Shown here: positions 679-34,830 of the stretch, in pieces
Layout of the letters: every line of letters starts with the position of its first letter
Position numbering within the stretch: position 1 is the first letter of the stretch
Assembly: GCA_014237975.1 (NCBI GenBank)
Contig: JABACA010000036.1
Span: 1 to 34,830 of the forward strand
DNA from: Mariniblastus sp.
Lineage (GTDB): Bacteria; Planctomycetota; Planctomycetia; Pirellulales; Pirellulaceae
Direction of reading: 5' to 3'
Length of the DNA: 34,830 nucleotides
Program-made: the position numbers and the translations under genes
Notes under the pieces: model-generated
The model's input: the letters and a program-made list of their open reading frames with translations, nothing else
What the model was told of the DNA's origin: nothing
Database searches by the model: none

Positions 679-1716
679 TTACCGCCGGTTGTTGCCCCGC
701 CGTCGGTCGGGCACCGGCACCTCGGTCTTCCAATCTTCACCGTTACGTCGACCATAGCGTACATGGCTGCCATGCGATTTGGAAGGTCGAGCATAGTTAT
801 CGGCCAACTTGACCAATGCCTGTTTCAACGCAGACGGGCCCACATCGCCACCGATCGTTTCGATCATTCTGCCTTGAGTTCCATATTCATTGGGCGCAAT
901 CACCAGGATCCCCGTTTTCCGGGTAGAACCCTGGACCGGTTTTAGATCGACTCGGTTGCTGGTCGAAGCATAGATGAATTTCCCCATCAAATCGTCGTCC
1001 CAAATGACCTGGTCAAGTTTCTTGGCCAGCCGGTCAACTTCGGCGTTGTCTTTTCCATGGACCACGATGCACGGCAACCCATCACAACTGGCAACATTCA
1101 AACCCAGTCGCACATTCTTCATTTGTGGCAAGCCATGGATCGCGTCATCTTTTTGTTGTGAATATTGCTTGGCGATACGGCGCAAGTCGGCGCCCATCTG
1201 ACCCGCATCCTGGTAAGCGAAGTTCGGGCCCCGGTTGCTCTGTTTCAATTTCCTGCTGGCATCTGGAGAGAGGATGCTGAAACCAAAATTTCTCAGGTCA
1301 TCACCACCACCAAACAGCGTCTTCTTGAGAAACTTGGCTTCCTGCTTGTCCTCGTAGGTTGCCGTCCTGATGCAAACAAAATCCCGCGAAGCTTTTATGA
1401 CCCCGGCATCGGACAGGAAACTCCTGTCCATATTTTGCTTGCCAGGTCACCACATACCCGGTACGCCAGAACATTGCGGCGCGGCTGAAACCAACAGAAT
1501 CGGCTTGCCCGTTCGCTTGGCTTGTTCCAATCCATCTTCCAAAACACCAAACCAGGCAATGCCAGGAACAACCTGCTTGCTGCCAGGCATACTGCCACCA
1601 AAAGACGCCCCTGTGGGAGGCGCCAGCTGGGCAGCCGAGGGCTCAATCCATGGGCCATGCATGAACACAATGGCCACCAAAGTAACGAAAGAAATGAATT
1701 GCGATTTCGGATTCAT
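679..1716 (-). CDS. Candidate selenoprotein 1: secreted thioredoxin-like protein with in-frame TGA (Sec90)
   Basis: This reads as one 345-residue protein if the TGA at 1449-1447 is decoded as selenocysteine. The ATG at 1716 has an AGGTGA ribosome site five bases upstream and begins a signal peptide (residues 1-29, ending SAAQ). A first thioredoxin-like domain follows: W55, L-E-x-G-L-x-Q-A helix, G-K-P-I-L-L strand, then C82 and TGA at codon 90 in the context GVPGMW-U-PGK. The same frame continues after TGA into the expected helix and into strand DFVCIRTA. A second thioredoxin-like region with strand GILVIAP and a basic Arg-rich tail ends the protein. Only one Cys precedes U, eight residues earlier, so this is not a classical CxxC. 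A SECIS-like hairpin lies at 1411-1429. The alternative is a pseudogene with one nonsense mutation. Against that, the frame is otherwise intact and a paralogue at 29647-30984 has TGA at the same place. Substrate and partner are unknown. Confidence 0.8.
1411..1429 (-). promoter_or_regulatory. SECIS-like hairpin downstream of TGA 1447-1449
   Basis: On the minus strand GGACAGG, loop AGTTT, CCTGTCC forms a perfect 7-bp stem, extendable by one T-G wobble pair, with a 5-nt apical loop. There are 24 nt between the TGA and the loop. Bacterial SECIS elements sit inside the coding sequence just after UGA, with a short apical loop holding G, usually GU, in its first two positions, about 16-37 nt after the UGA. 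The second loop base here is G, followed by U. SelB binding is inferred, not shown. Confidence 0.7.
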
Positions 1717-7753: not shown

Positions 7754-9226
7754 CTAGCCAGTTGGTTTCGTTGGCGTGTCCGGCTGTAGATCTTTGCTGC
7801 GTTGTTTCAAAAACAACTCGTGCAGTTTTGATGCGATACCCGAATGTTCCGCCGCAACATCGGTTTGTTCCCGTGGATCCTTTGTCAGGTTAAACAGCTG
7901 CCAATCCTGGGCATCCATCGGTTCCTGCTTGCTGTATTTGACGATCTTCCAATCACCGTGTTGCAGCGCCCAACGGTTGGTTTTCCTGTTCCAGATCCAG
8001 TACAGATCACGTTCTACCAACGGTTCATCGGCAAAGACAATCGGTGAAAGGTCCACCCCATCCCAGGGAACGGGCTGGCTCGGTTGATATCCAACCAGAC
8101 CAGCCAACGTCGGAAACCAATCGATGATGTGAACCGGGTCGGACACCTGTTTGGGTTGGATATGACCGGGCCAATTGGCAAACCCGGGAACGTGAATGCC
8201 ACCTTCCCATACGTCTGTCTTTTTTCCCTTCATCGGCAACGGCTGATTGAATTGGGTCAACTTGAGATCGTCGGGGTAGGCGTTGCCCGGCCAACTCCCT
8301 TGCGGTCCATTGTCAGAAGAAAAAAGAATCAGCGTGTTTTCTCGTTGGCCCGTCCGTTGCAAGGCTGCCACGATCTCGCCAATGGCATGATCCAGGTGAT
8401 GGGCTGCGGCCAATAGCAATCTTTTTTCCGGGTCCGGTTCACTTTGGATTTTTCCTGCTGGATCATTAAACCACTTGATCTGGTCTTCATTGCGCCAACG
8501 ATCCGGATTTTCCTTATCCAGCTGAGTCGGCTGGTCAACGAACGGGCCACGCTCATCCAGCGGCGTGTGGACCGCGTGGAAGGCGACATATAAAAAAAAG
8601 GGCCGTGTCCGTTTCTGTTCAATCACTCTGACCGCCTCGCGTGCGACCAGGTCGGTCGCATGGATCCCGTCTTGGCGACCGGGGATCGATTGATGATCCC
8701 GGTGCCAGGTTTCTTCAAAAGGCCCTGGGCGGTAGCGATGGTCGTACATGCCCACTGCCCCGGCCAACGATCCATAAGTATGGTCAAAGCCAAAATGATT
8801 CGGCCCGTGCTCCGGCCTGGATCCCAAGTGCCATTTGCCACACAGGTAGGTGTCATACCCTGCTTCCTTGAACATACTGCCCAGGGTAGGGGTGCCCAAT
8901 GGAAAGGCCGGTTCGTTACTGGCGGCCAATGCCTGGTGGCCAAAGCGCCCCGGGTAGCGACCCGTCATGACGGCGACACGGGTTGGTGTACACTGCGGCA
9001 TCACGTAATGCCTGGTAAACGTGGCACCCTGTTTAGCCAACTGATCGAGGTGCGGCGTATAAACCTTGGGATTGTTGTAACCAATATCGGCCCAGCCTTG
9101 ATCGTCGCTGATGATCACAATCACATTGGGTCGACCCTGTTCAGCCAGCAGTTGCGAGCATGCGGCAACCAGAACCAGGATTCCAAACACTCCAACCATC
9201 CATCTCGACAAGCCTGCTTTAACCAT
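7754..9226 (-). CDS. Secreted sulfatase (arylsulfatase family, formylglycine type)
   Basis: A 490-residue enzyme with a signal peptide (hydrophobic 11-27, ending LAEQ). The active-site signature C-T-P-T-R at 79-83 is the C-x-P-x-R site where Cys is converted to formylglycine. Calcium ligands are expected at D41-D42 (ISDDQGWAD) and in SSDNGPQGSW further on. The KWHLG motif, typical of family S1 sulfatases, is also present. It should hydrolyse sulfate esters outside the cytoplasm, probably on marine polysaccharides or glycosaminoglycan-like substrates, but the exact substrate cannot be told. AGAGGA-type ribosome bases lie about eight nt before the ATG. It begins 23 nt after the 1406-residue cytochrome-type protein, so the two are likely an operon. 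Confidence 0.95.
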   Translation of the reverse strand: MVKAGLSRWMVGVFGILVLVAACSQLLAEQGRPNVIVIISDDQGWADIGYNNPKVYTPHLDQLAKQGATFTRHYVMPQCTPTRVAVMTGRYPGRFGHQALAASNEPAFPLGTPTLGSMFKEAGYDTYLCGKWHLGSRPEHGPNHFGFDHTYGSLAGAVGMYDHRYRPGPFEETWHRDHQSIPGRQDGIHATDLVAREAVRVIEQKRTRPFFLYVAFHAVHTPLDERGPFVDQPTQLDKENPDRWRNEDQIKWFNDPAGKIQSEPDPEKRLLLAAAHHLDHAIGEIVAALQRTGQRENTLILFSSDNGPQGSWPGNAYPDDLKLTQFNQPLPMKGKKTDVWEGGIHVPGFANWPGHIQPKQVSDPVHIIDWFPTLAGLVGYQPSQPVPWDGVDLSPIVFADEPLVERDLYWIWNRKTNRWALQHGDWKIVKYSKQEPMDAQDWQLFNLTKDPREQTDVAAEHSGIASKLHELFLKQRSKDLQPDTPTKPTG

Positions 9227-26865: not shown

Positions 26866-28242
26866 TCAATTCTTGATTTTTAACGGATAACCGTCGCTAC
26901 CATCGCGGATCACATCCAATAACGCCTTCAGTTCGGCAACCTTGGCGGGGTGTTTTTTGGCCAGGTTCGTCGTCTCACCGATATCGGCATCCAGATCATA
27001 AAGTTCTTCCACTTCCTCGCGCTGCCGATCGCGGGCATAGCCATGCATGCAATGTTTTGGCTTGAGGTATTTCCACTTTCCCTGGCGAACCGCGTTGACA
27101 TAAAAGAAGCTGTCCCGGTTCCCCTTGACATTTTTTCCCAGCATCAAGTCCGTCTGGTCGACTCCGTCCATCTTGCGGTCAGCGGGGATATCAAATCCAC
27201 AAAGATTGGCAAACGTGGGCATGAAATCGATCGTGGCAAAAATCGCGTCCGACGTTTGGCCGGCAGGAACCTTGCCGGGCCAGCGAACAATGCAGGGCAC
27301 CCGGCAACCACCCTCGTAACACGACCCCTTGCCGTTTCGCAATGGACCGGCGCTTCCCCAGAAGACGGAACCCTCGGGATGCCCCTTTTTCTTGTCGGTA
27401 TAGGCCGGCTGATTCCAGGGCCCGTTGTCCGTCGTGTAGATGACAATTGTATTGTCGGCCAGTCCCAATTCATCCAGCGTATCGAGCAAACGGCCCGTTT
27501 CAAAATCGAACTCCTCAACCACATCACCGTACAAGTCTCCCTGGGACGTGCCACGAAAACGTTCGGAGGCACCAATGATCGTATGCATCATCGTGTGGGC
27601 GACGTACAACAGGAACGGTTTATCCGGGTCGCGCCGGTTCTTGAGGAAATCGATTGCCTTGTCCGTGTACAGTCGGGTCAGGCTGCCCATGTCTCGGGTC
27701 TGGCCCGCCTGCTGGTTGTCTTCGTGAAACGTGACACTGCCGTTGTCGTTCGCGCCCAACGTCCCAAAATAATAGTCAAACCCTTGTGCGTTAGGCATCC
27801 GGTCAATGATCGGTTTCCGATTGGACACATCCCATTTGCCGATGCAAGCCGTTTGATACCCGGCCTGTTTCATCAGCTCGGCAAACGTAACTTCGCTGGC
27901 GGGCATTCCCCAGCCTTTGCTCCGGTGCGGATAGCGGCCGGTCAGCAGTGCCGACCGCGAGGGCCCGCATACATGCTGGGCGTAAAAATTTGTAAAACGT
28001 GTCCCTTCCTCGGCCAGCTGATCGAGCCGGGGCGTCTTGTTGATTTCCGAACCGTAACAGCCGAGGTCGCCATATCCCTGGTCATCGGTAAAAAGGATCA
28101 GGATGTTCGGTGGCTCCAGTCCACCCTCGGTCCTGCCATCCGCTTGTGCAAGCAGAAGGCTCGTGTCCAGACCGACCAACAAAGTGAAAACGGCCGTGCA
28201 AGCCGCAAGTTGGTAACAATGACTCTTAAAGTCGGAAATCAT
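26866..28242 (-). CDS. Secreted sulfatase (arylsulfatase family, formylglycine type)
   Basis: A 458-residue enzyme with a signal peptide (hydrophobic 11-31). C-G-P-S-R at 92-96 is the Cys-to-formylglycine site. Calcium-binding Asp53-Asp54 are in LFTDDQGYGDL, and the second acidic pair is in YTTDNGPWNQP. It differs in sequence from the other two sulfatases in the window: the helix after the core signature is RSALLTGRYPHRS, and the region before the C-terminus is shorter. This suggests a different substrate. An AGGTAGG ribosome site lies before the ATG at 28242. No partner glycosidase or transporter is adjacent. The maturation enzyme (FGE) is not in this window. Confidence 0.95.
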   Translation of the reverse strand: MISDFKSHCYQLAACTAVFTLLVGLDTSLLLAQADGRTEGGLEPPNILILFTDDQGYGDLGCYGSEINKTPRLDQLAEEGTRFTNFYAQHVCGPSRSALLTGRYPHRSKGWGMPASEVTFAELMKQAGYQTACIGKWDVSNRKPIIDRMPNAQGFDYYFGTLGANDNGSVTFHEDNQQAGQTRDMGSLTRLYTDKAIDFLKNRRDPDKPFLLYVAHTMMHTIIGASERFRGTSQGDLYGDVVEEFDFETGRLLDTLDELGLADNTIVIYTTDNGPWNQPAYTDKKKGHPEGSVFWGSAGPLRNGKGSCYEGGCRVPCIVRWPGKVPAGQTSDAIFATIDFMPTFANLCGFDIPADRKMDGVDQTDLMLGKNVKGNRDSFFYVNAVRQGKWKYLKPKHCMHGYARDRQREEVEELYDLDADIGETTNLAKKHPAKVAELKALLDVIRDGSDGYPLKIKN

Positions 28243-29646: not shown

Positions 29647-30984
29647 TCAACGTTTTCCAGTGGGCAGCCGGTCCCGGTTCTGTGAGCGGGGCGGTTGACC
29701 AGCTTTCACTTCGGCCACGATGCCGTACCTCACACGGCTGTTCAAATCAATCGTATGGCCACTGGGCAAGTAGGAGACATCGCTCTTGGCCAGGTTGCGC
29801 TCGGTACCAAACTTGAGACGTTCCCGGCCTTTCGCCGAAACGATGATCTCCGTAACCTGGCCCGATTCCACCAAAACAAAGCCATCCCAATCGAGCTGGA
29901 CCCGGTGCAGGTCACCCGGCGTCGCATTGCACATCCGGTCATCGTGGGAGGTATCCGATTTGCCTGTGATCCGCCAAAGTCCCTCCGATCCGGCTACCCG
30001 TTTCGCCGAAAATTCACAAGTCAGCAACTCCCCCTTAATCGGGCCCGGGTTGAAAATGGGCGCCACATCCAGCACGCCCAAATACGCATGCGCAACAAAA
30101 GGGCGAAACAACGCCTCGGGAAAGGCAACTTCCTGTTCTTCCTTCCCGGAGAGCAATTCAGCAAGTTTCCCGGTCACGCGGGGCGGGACAATGAAACGTT
30201 CTTCCACATAATACTCCTGACTTAATGGATCCGGCCTCGGTTGGCCCTCCTTGTCAAACGCTCGACCGACCAAACTCGCCTCGATGGCACCCTCCGGAAT
30301 CGGTGGGGTGGCCGGGCAGTGAGTACCGGCCGCGTGTCGTTCCGCAACGGGCAGCGCCGCGCCGTTGTCCATCACGTCGTCCAATTTCCGGTTAGGAAAA
30401 TGCATAAAACGTTCGGCGGCGACAGGTTTACTGGCGTCGGGATATTCGTGGTACCGTTTGAGGGAGTGGTCCAGGAAGGCAATGACTTCTTGATCACCAT
30501 TAAATGAAACAACCCATTCGAGGACTTTGCCAGCCGGGTTGACGACGCAGATCCCCTGCGGCAACGGTTGAGAGCGGGCAATTTCACGGTACAGCCGTCC
30601 CTCCTCGTCGTCGGGAGGACGGTTGACCAGTCCCGCCTTGAGCGACACAGGGATAAAGTCCTGTCGCACACGGCGAATCACTTCCGGTTTGGAGAAAACC
30701 GCCTCACGGGCGGCACCGGCAAACACTCAGCACCGCGCGTCGTCAGCCGGTCGATCGATAAACACCCATAGTAATGCCGGTTTTCCCTCTGCGCGGGCTT
30801 GCCGAAGTCCTTCCAACAAACAAGGTTGCCAATCAATTTTTCGCCACGCGACGTCGGAAACCTTCATTGCCTCAATGTTGGCTTTCATCATGGCCGGCGT
30901 TACCGGTTCCTGGGCGCGACTGAGTCCTCCCATGTAACCAAGCAAAATGACTGCCGTTAATATCATCATTCTTTTGTACTGCAT
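29647..30984 (-). CDS. Candidate selenoprotein 2: exported thioredoxin-like protein with in-frame TGA (Sec86)
   Basis: This is one 445-residue protein if TGA at 30729-30727 is read as selenocysteine. Signal peptide 1-24 (to SRAQ) is followed by a thioredoxin-like domain: helix DWQPCLLEGLRQARAEGKP, strand ALLWVFID, then C85-U86 in ARC-U-VFAG. After TGA the same frame continues into helix AREAVFSKPEVIRRVRQDF and strand FIPVSLKA, with ICVVNPAGKVLEWVVSF as later strands. The remaining 250 residues are a beta-rich C-terminal domain with SQEYYVEERFIVPPRV and several Cys. A 5-bp perfect SECIS-like hairpin lies at 30699-30713. Adjacent C-U could form a vicinal selenenylsulfide. The start ATG at 30984 has GAGGG 12 bases upstream. 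The alternative is a nonsense-mutated pseudogene; the intact frame and the paralogue at 679-1716 argue against it. Confidence 0.82.
30699..30713 (-). promoter_or_regulatory. SECIS-like hairpin downstream of TGA 30727-30729
   Basis: On the minus strand CCGCC, loop CGTGA, GGCGG forms a perfect 5-bp stem, extendable by a G-U pair, with a 5-nt loop starting C-G-U. There are 18 nt between the TGA and the loop, within the 16-37 nt usual for bacterial SECIS elements. The loop has G in its second position, as in the hairpin of candidate 1. An outer pairing CCGGT with ACCGG nearby may support the fold. SelB binding is inferred. Confidence 0.62.
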
Positions 30985-34010: not shown

Positions 34011-34830
34011 CTACTTGCTACGGTTCTGATCCTGGAACAACGGGAAGGTGGCAGAATCGATCCTGGCTTTAGAAAAAATCGCCTTCATCTGCTGGACCTT
34101 GGCCGGGTAGTCGGCCGCCACATTGTTCTTCTCGCCCAAATCACGCGACAAGTCATACAGCTCGATCTTGGCATCCGCGTTCTTGCGAAGATTGCCCCGC
34201 ACCGCCTTAAAGTTTCCCTGCCGGATCGCCTGCCAACCTCCCCGTGGGCTAAATTCCCAGTACAGGTAATCGTGCTCTGGCTGTTCCTGCCCGAGAAAGG
34301 TCGGCAGCATCGAAATTCCATCCACGTTTTCGGGAACTTCCAATCCGGCCATTTCACAGAACGTGGGCAACATGTCCCAGAAGGCCGAGATATGGTCCGA
34401 CGTAGAACCGGCCTGGATTTTCCCTGGCCAACAAGCCACCAGCGGCGCCCGGATCCCCCCTTCGTACAGGTCCCGTTTGATTCCTCGCAGAGGTCCATTA
34501 CTGTTCCAGAACTCCGGGTTGTGTCCACCCTCGCGGTGCGGCCCATTGTCGCTGGTAAAAATGACCAGTGTTTCGTCCTCGATCCCCAGTTCGTTCAGCA
34601 AGGCCAGGATCCGCCCCACGCCATCATCCAGGTGCTCGACCATGGCCGGAAAAGCGGCGACCGGGTTTTGCACCTTCTTACTCGCATAGTTACCGACCTT
34701 GTCTTCGAATTGCGGGTAACGCTTGCGATACTTGTCGTGTAAATGCTTTGGCGCCTGCATCGCCGCATGGGGGATGGTGACCGGCAGATAACAGAAAAAG
34801 GGTCGGTCCTTGTTGGTCCGAATGAACTTC
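34011..34830 (-). CDS. Sulfatase, arylsulfatase family (C-terminal part; 5' end cut by window edge)
   Basis: The reading frame is open to the right edge and continues upstream of the internal Met at 34760 (KFIRTNKDRPFFCYLPVTIP, then HAAMQAP), so this is the C-terminal 272 residues of a longer enzyme. The calcium-site pair TSDNGPHREGG, the GGIRAPLVACWPGKI strand and the ELYDLSRDLGEKNNVAAD closing motif are typical of family S1 sulfatases. The catalytic C-x-P-x-R and the signal peptide must lie outside the window. It is a different sequence from the two complete sulfatases here. It ends 338 bp before the EamA gene start. Substrate is unknown. Confidence 0.93.
   Translation of the reverse strand, partial: KFIRTNKDRPFFCYLPVTIPHAAMQAPKHLHDKYRKRYPQFEDKVGNYASKKVQNPVAAFPAMVEHLDDGVGRILALLNELGIEDETLVIFTSDNGPHREGGHNPEFWNSNGPLRGIKRDLYEGGIRAPLVACWPGKIQAGSTSDHISAFWDMLPTFCEMAGLEVPENVDGISMLPTFLGQEQPEHDYLYWEFSPRGGWQAIRQGNFKAVRGNLRKNADAKIELYDLSRDLGEKNNVAADYPAKVQQMKAIFSKARIDSATFPLFQDQNRSK

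Follow-up and report, generated by a model that had tools for sequence, protein, structure and literature searches.

A bacterial family of thioredoxin-like proteins with an in-frame TGA, very probably read as selenocysteine, and a C-x7-U motif

Described thioredoxin-like proteins and the Mariniblastus locus

Thioredoxin-like selenoproteins usually carry a CxxU or UxxC active site. Ordinary members of the DsbD C-terminal domain, AGR2/AGR3, TXNDC12 and DsbH groups contain CxxC or a variant of this motif, and C-x-x-C was observed in TXNDC12 in a PDB alignment. A selenocysteine (Sec) form with the motif CxxU is known for Trx7/PDZ (NF041199) according to the table of PMC13188914.

The gene analyzed here lies at positions 679-1716 of a 34,830-nucleotide stretch of contig JABACA010000036.1 of Mariniblastus sp. 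(Pirellulaceae), hereafter the window, and its family departs from the usual layout with C-x7-U followed by P-G-K (U-P-G-K). When eight family members (four Sec and four Cys forms) were compared with the NCBIfam models, none reached a cut-off. The nearest (seleno)protein models were Trx7/PDZ, VPGUxxT (NF041383) and TsoB (NF045694), each scoring very low. The likeness to Trx7/PDZ is weak similarity of a thioredoxin-like domain (13.5 bits across residues 54-119 of the window protein, up to 19.4 bits in a Cys relative), but the cut-off of 300 bits was far from reached, the window protein had no Pfam PDZ match and CxxU was absent, the Cys standing 8 residues before Sec. VPGUxxT weakly matched the paralogue L035 (12.7 bits) and L039 (11.6 bits) and shares a VPG element near Sec; however, its cut-off of 275 bits was not reached, the window protein was not among the matches listed, and the window gene encodes VPGMWU (VPG-x-W-U-PG), in which Sec comes two residues later and UxxT is missing. 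Since Trx7/PDZ and VPGUxxT were among the nearest models, though at such scores, the family may be a sister group of these two.

At the level of predicted structure, AGR2, AGR3, the DsbD gamma (C-terminal) domain, TXNDC12 (1sen) and DsbH were among the folds closest to domain 1 in Foldseek (TM-score by target ~0.53-0.64), but the window protein differs from all of them in its C-x7-U and its second domain. Multi-domain protein disulfide isomerases gave the best whole-model E-value, yet they are alike in domain order alone and superposed poorly (rmsd ~15-19 A, TM-score by query ~0.21-0.25).

No thioredoxin-like entry with C-x7-U or UPGK was found in Table 1 of PMC13188914 (2026; 119 families by its text) as far as the paper was available; entries without a printed motif were judged by their NCBIfam model, where one exists. 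The accessible portions of PMC12013277, PMC2398784, PMC5330540, PMC1794560, PMC9312934, PMC1242214 and PMC4807772 do not name the family either. Sec insertion is standard here; the family and its active-site layout are absent from the catalogues consulted, to the extent that these were available, and an earlier listing cannot be excluded.

Reading of the TGA codon

The initial annotation had taken the two minus-strand ORFs at 1447-1716 and 679-1431 for one thioredoxin-like gene, interrupted by a TGA that probably stands for selenocysteine and is followed by a hairpin. The two frames are indeed in register, the TGA at 1449-1447 being the sole stop from ATG 1716 to TAA 681-679, and the hairpin was found as described (GGACAGG-AGUUU-CCUGUCC at 1429-1411; 7 bp, a 5-nt loop, loop start 24 nt past the TGA). 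By itself the split-ORF pattern is not above chance: 1142 TGAs in the window part in-register frames, and for 39 of them the frame stays open over 60 codons or more in either direction. What lifts this case above chance is the hairpin, the lowest in energy among the 39 (-12.8 kcal/mol), together with the conservation of TGA in relatives. We conclude, with a probability of about 0.96 and with no evidence at the protein level, that 679-1716 is one gene whose TGA is read as Sec (Table 1).

Table 1. Positions of the two genes and of their features in the window
Feature	Position	Strand	Details	Basis
Selenoprotein gene	679..1716	minus	345 residues, ATG 1716, TAA 681-679, Sec = codon 90	frame and homologues
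TGA read as selenocysteine, residue 90	1447..1449	minus		TGA in 115/123 de-duplicated family genes, Cys in the other 8
Probable signal peptide	1630..1716	minus	residues 1-29, ending ...SAA before Q	sequence by eye and model
Cys82, proposed partner thiol	1471..1473	minus	-8 from Sec	Cys at -8 in 120/123 genes
Cys115, invariant	1372..1374	minus	strand after the active-site helices	123/123 genes; model strand 114-119
Domain 1, thioredoxin-like, with Sec	1222..1569	minus	~residues 50-165	model, Foldseek, sub-threshold Thioredoxin_7 match
Domain 2, alpha/beta	787..1131	minus	~residues 196-310	model; without invariant Cys in A1, A2
Bacterial SECIS-type hairpin	1410..1430	minus	7 bp and flanking pairs; loop AGUUU at 1422-1418	
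Second probable selenoprotein gene	29647..30984	minus	445 residues, motif DARC-U-VFAG, related thioredoxin-like domain	
Second in-frame TGA, residue 86	30727..30729	minus	hairpin loop CGUGA at 30708-30704	

The published rules for bacterial SECIS elements (PMC13188914) ask for a loop of 3-9 nt with G in its first two positions, placed 16-37 nt after UGA, on a stem of 4-16 bp with an energy of at most -7.5 kcal/mol. The window hairpin, with its loop 24-25 nt after UGA, fits them. In a strict scan that allowed no bulge, the rules were passed by 74 of 115 TGA genes of the family, by none of the 8 Cys genes and by 132 of 2300 in-frame positions drawn at random within the same set of genes; of the 41 TGA genes that failed, many keep the loop but have a mismatch in the stem or, in subfamily B, a weak stem rich in A-U pairs. 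The loop position held a G with U or G as the next base in 114/115 TGA genes vs 1/8 Cys genes. The mean helix at the fixed loop offset measured 7.3 bp compared with 2.0 bp after shuffling of synonymous codons (200 shuffles per gene; 82/115 genes at or below 0.05), and with at most 2.13 bp at the 39 other offsets tried. Stem positions showed several standard pair types, e.g., AGG-AGT-TTC vs AGA-AGT-TTT. Judging from these comparisons, the hairpin is under selection.

The complete Sec machinery, with SelB and tRNA-Sec as the components whose absence would have refuted the reading, was detected in the 5.0 Mb draft genome to which the window belongs: tRNA-Sec scored 70.2 bits (cut-off 47), SelB 271 bits (cut-off 242), SelA 576 bits (cut-off 268) and SelD 266 bits (cut-off 125), the SelB match beginning at a contig edge (model positions 45-580).

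Relatives were collected in three sets. Among 60 related genomes, own included, 25 were matched by the read-through protein and 24 had the TGA gene. Exactly one TGA was found in 33 of the 35 matches, the exceptions being a C-terminal piece of one gene (G014) and a short match to an ordinary W-C-x-x-C protein (G041). The own genome has four copies, on contigs C299 (the window), C166, C109 and C5. A sample of 392 genomes from the phylum, with at most 5 candidates scored per genome, yielded matches in 59; of the 54 long matches from genomes other than the own one, 52 had the TGA, three of them with two TGAs and three with an extra TAA or TAG, and of the remaining two matches one starts at a contig end past the site and the other is frameshifted with the TGA still there. 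The third set comprised the best 80 of 139 loci on genome contigs, ranked by likeness to the Sec query. TGA forms in these best 80 came from records labelled Planctomycetota, Verrucomicrobiota, Melainabacteria (Obscuribacter) and Eremiobacterota, and one Fimbriimonas record had Cys at the site. Actinomycetota and Proteobacteria each appeared as a single label, perhaps through errors of binning. The weak stop-free matches (L033 and six in the 392-genome sample) were inspected and none proved to be a Cys form of the family. Plasmid records searched with the protein gave no match.

After removal of entries with identical DNA round the site, 144 genes, window gene included, were reduced to 123, of which 115 had TGA and 8 had Cys at the site. 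This ratio is not a prevalence, because the set draws on the best 80 of 139 loci by likeness to a Sec query, one of the two search patterns for the contig relatives had Cys in place of Sec, and at most five candidates per genome were scored. The eight Cys forms made up a single clade (support 100/100), and the tree row nearest to the window gene came from a Mariniblastus MAG of Pirellulaceae. A change from Sec to Cys is likely, but as the tree was rooted at the midpoint, this direction is not proved.

The form of the gene went along with the machinery. In 18 genomes, tRNA-Sec was found in 10/10 with the TGA form vs 0/8 with the Cys form, and SelB in 7/10 vs 0/8. All 24 TGA genomes among the 60 relatives (own included) had tRNA-Sec or SelB over threshold (22 each), and the gene was present in none of the 16 genomes with neither (Fisher p = 5.7e-5, a guide only, since the species are related). 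The gaps, namely SelB above cut-off not found in 2/24 TGA relatives and in 3/10 TGA-form genomes, and tRNA-Sec not found in another 2/24, all concerned drafts. Two of the 16 genomes with neither (G004 and G024, 80% and 71% complete) nevertheless have a TGA gene that belongs to the second family (see below). Purifying selection acts after the TGA in the pairs compared: the comparison of the window gene with its relative L010 gave pN 0.202 and pS 0.645, and that of the relatives L013 and L017 gave dN 0.025 and dS 0.36 for the part after the TGA, while some other gene pairs were saturated at synonymous sites.

Altogether, the outcomes that would have refuted the initial annotation (a genome without selB and tRNA-Sec genes, homologues lacking the C-terminal half or with stops scattered elsewhere) were not found, and its selenocysteine interpretation was supported by the machinery, by homologues with TGA or Cys and by the hairpin. 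A plain nonsense mutation, or a sequencing error, would leave both ORFs as debris of a pseudogene, and it is true that split ORFs of such size are no rarity in the window (39 of 1142); with TGA at the same codon in 115/123 genes of several phyla, purifying selection past it and a fixed hairpin, hardly any room is left for this explanation. An ATG 15 nt after the TGA (Met96, ATG 1431) would permit a reading as two genes, one for a short N-terminal peptide and one for a C-terminal protein, but the modelled fold takes in both sides (strand 73-78, helix 91-99), the eight Cys forms read straight through and subfamily B does not conserve the Met, so that we give two genes almost no credence. Reading of UGA as another residue, such as Trp, or a general read-through had no supporting evidence that we could see. 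It is contradicted by relatives that have Cys as the alternative and whose genomes yielded no tRNA-Sec, by the whole Sec set of the own genome and by a hairpin apparently under selection, and we consider it extremely improbable.

Fold, active site and proposed action

The AlphaFold2 model, based on 61 alignment rows, had a pLDDT of 90.0 and a pTM of 0.86. It starts with a helix (residues 5-19) and a low-confidence linker. Domain 1 is predicted to be thioredoxin-like, with a strand at 73-78 before the TGA, a helix at 91-99 after it and a further strand at 114-119, and with Sec90 as the N-cap residue of the active-site helix, where thioredoxins have their attacking Cys. Foldseek with the predicted model showed similarity to the thioredoxin fold at the domain level. 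The window protein stayed below the gathering score of Pfam Thioredoxin_7 (PF13899; 19.3 bits vs 27 bits); of the 33 members of A1, 32 matched it at E <= 1, the best at 5.2e-07. Domain 2 was also considered as a duplicate of domain 1 and rejected, the profile comparison giving a probability of only 1.6%. The protein is probably exported and two-domain; export is inferred from the signal-peptide-like start here and in relatives, without a prediction program.

In the window protein, Sec stands in the context APQC-SGVPGMW-U-PGKQNMDRSFL, and the family motif is C-x7-U-PG-(K/Y). The remark that CxxU is lacking was borne out: the active site is neither CxxC, CxxU nor UxxC, with G instead of Cys at -3 in 123/123 genes. 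It had, however, left out the Cys at -8, which is present in 120 of the 123; one of the other three genes is cut off ahead of the site, and the TGA genes L154 and L156 have their loop Cys elsewhere. Around Sec/Cys, W or F at -1 was found in all 123 genes, P at +1 in 120, G at +2 in 122 and, at +3, K in 102, Y in 19 and F and M in one each. Cys at +25, Arg at +27 and Glu at +32 were invariant (123/123 each).

Sequence alignments do not settle whether Sec corresponds to the first or the second Cys of CxxC. Those with TXNDC12 (2k8v, 1sen; E 0.7-0.8) and with L033 put W-U on W-C, i.e., Sec on the first Cys of W-C-x-x-C, with ~8 residues inserted ahead of W. In L188 (C-Y-W-C), Cys82 falls on the first Cys and Sec on the second, and the short alignments with 3ph9, 3ira and 3fk8 end at Cys82, placed on the motif region. 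C-x7-U can accordingly be viewed in two ways: either Sec holds the attacking place and an inserted loop supplies its partner thiol, or a CxxC has been lengthened by five residues.

Selenolates are better nucleophiles, and for this reason, and because the model favours it, we took Sec90 as the attacker with Cys82 as its partner. This assignment was inferred without a Cys82-Sec90 distance; the L188 alignment in the other register lowered our confidence, and we put it forward only tentatively. The Sec90 selenolate at the N-cap would attack a disulfide, a sulfenic acid or a peroxide, Cys82 would resolve the resulting selenenyl-sulfide, and a periplasmic donor might re-reduce the protein, e.g., DsbD, which is encoded in the own genome. 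The invariant Cys115 could be an alternative partner or a structural residue. The function inferred is that of an exported thiol/disulfide or peroxide redox enzyme.

Two other views of the Sec residue, both of which we think unlikely without dismissing them, must be weighed against this assignment. The roles may be swapped, with CxxC stretched by five residues, Cys82 as the attacking thiol and Sec90 as its partner; L188 and the three short alignments (3ph9, 3ira, 3fk8) speak for it, whereas the model helix starting right after Sec, in the place of the first Cys, and the 2k8v, 1sen and L033 alignments speak against it. Alternatively, Sec may act alone, without Cys82, in a peroxidase-like or a metal- or oxyanion-binding site, as the lack of both CxxU and UxxC would allow. 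A genomic association points the same way. Methanethiol oxidases related to the selenium-binding protein SBP56 release H2O2. One paralogue of the own genome (L185, contig C166) adjoins an SBP56 gene and lies ~3 kb from selA, with histone-like and RTX-repeat genes in between, so it sits between selA and SBP56. Relatives of SBP56 have been described as methanethiol oxidases (PMC10277263). Against Sec acting alone stand the Cys at -8 in 120/123 genes and the rarity of the SBP56 neighbour, which recurred only at locus L021, i.e., in 2 genomes among the loci examined, many of which have short flanks.

The second gene, genomic surroundings and implications

The window holds a second TGA gene (Table 1), probably a selenoprotein of a related family, as inferred from sequence comparison. 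Its protein gave no Pfam match (E <= 0.001) and no NCBIfam match (E <= 1), and its hairpin has -9.7 kcal/mol. In the 60 relatives this family had 33 matches in 23 genomes, 32 of the 33 with one TGA. At the 20 loci examined, Cys directly precedes Sec or lies one residue apart; a loop CGUG(N) 18 nt after the TGA was present in 17/20, and 9/20 reached -7.5 kcal/mol. Its profile matched the thioredoxin-like domain of the first family with Sec opposite Sec (probability 92.6%, E 4.5e-7). Four first-family and three second-family matches make seven TGA-bearing genes in the own draft genome, two of them in the window. The motif of the second gene at 29647-30984 reads DARC-U-VFAGAAREAVFS, and distant kin have GC(V/T)U-NNG.

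A third TGA-split frame (33237, minus) was rejected as a selenoprotein, its hairpin failing at -2.3 kcal/mol; the TGA is probably an ordinary stop. Searched apart, its two pieces resemble a portion of an EamA-type transporter and a different, seemingly unrelated membrane protein, with all matches below cut-offs.

The surroundings of the family loci were scanned up to 2.5 kb from the site, counting stop-to-stop frames with 100 codons or more. EF-hand patterns (12/307 vs 2/406) and sulfatase signatures (11/307 vs 2/406) were enriched near the site. The EF-hand enrichment is a lead only, as 9 of the 12 cases are Verrucomicrobiota loci, possibly of shared ancestry, and the neighbours give no function. 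Kinship among the loci weakens the sulfatase excess as well. The Pfam check of these calls was limited to L140, L097 and L144 for EF-hand and to L148 for sulfatase.

Several observations may be recorded beside these counts. EF-hand-pattern genes lie within 2.5 kb of L132, L134, L135, L136, L139, L140, L141, L148 and L150, and of L097, L104 and L114. An EF-hand-like stretch precedes the domain in two Cys forms, L144 (below the Pfam cut-off) and L146, and several subfamily B proteins end with a DRDGDGKID-like loop. A sulfatase-cluster frame comes next on the same strand, within ~10 nt (stop-to-stop), at L128, L132, L136, L139, L140, L141, L142, L148 and L150. The 35-kb window itself contains three sulfatase genes or gene parts (7754-9226, 26866-28242 and 34011-34760, minus); many sulfatases are usual in planctomycetes.

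The observations raised a wider hypothesis, which we rate at somewhat under even odds. Planctomycetes of this lineage would export paralogous thioredoxin-like selenoproteins with an enlarged C-x7-U motif as a selenium-based extracytoplasmic redox system, in which the resolving thiol has moved to the loop before Sec or CxxC has been stretched by five residues, and standard annotation would cut these proteins into fragments. The family adds a mostly Sec-form member to the prokaryotic selenoproteome, one that is easily overlooked, since gene callers end the frame at UGA. Its Cys forms, in genomes where no tRNA-Sec was found, represent a natural experiment, and the C-x7-U / U-P-G-K active site is directly testable. 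The use of selenium by planctomycetes may have been under-counted.
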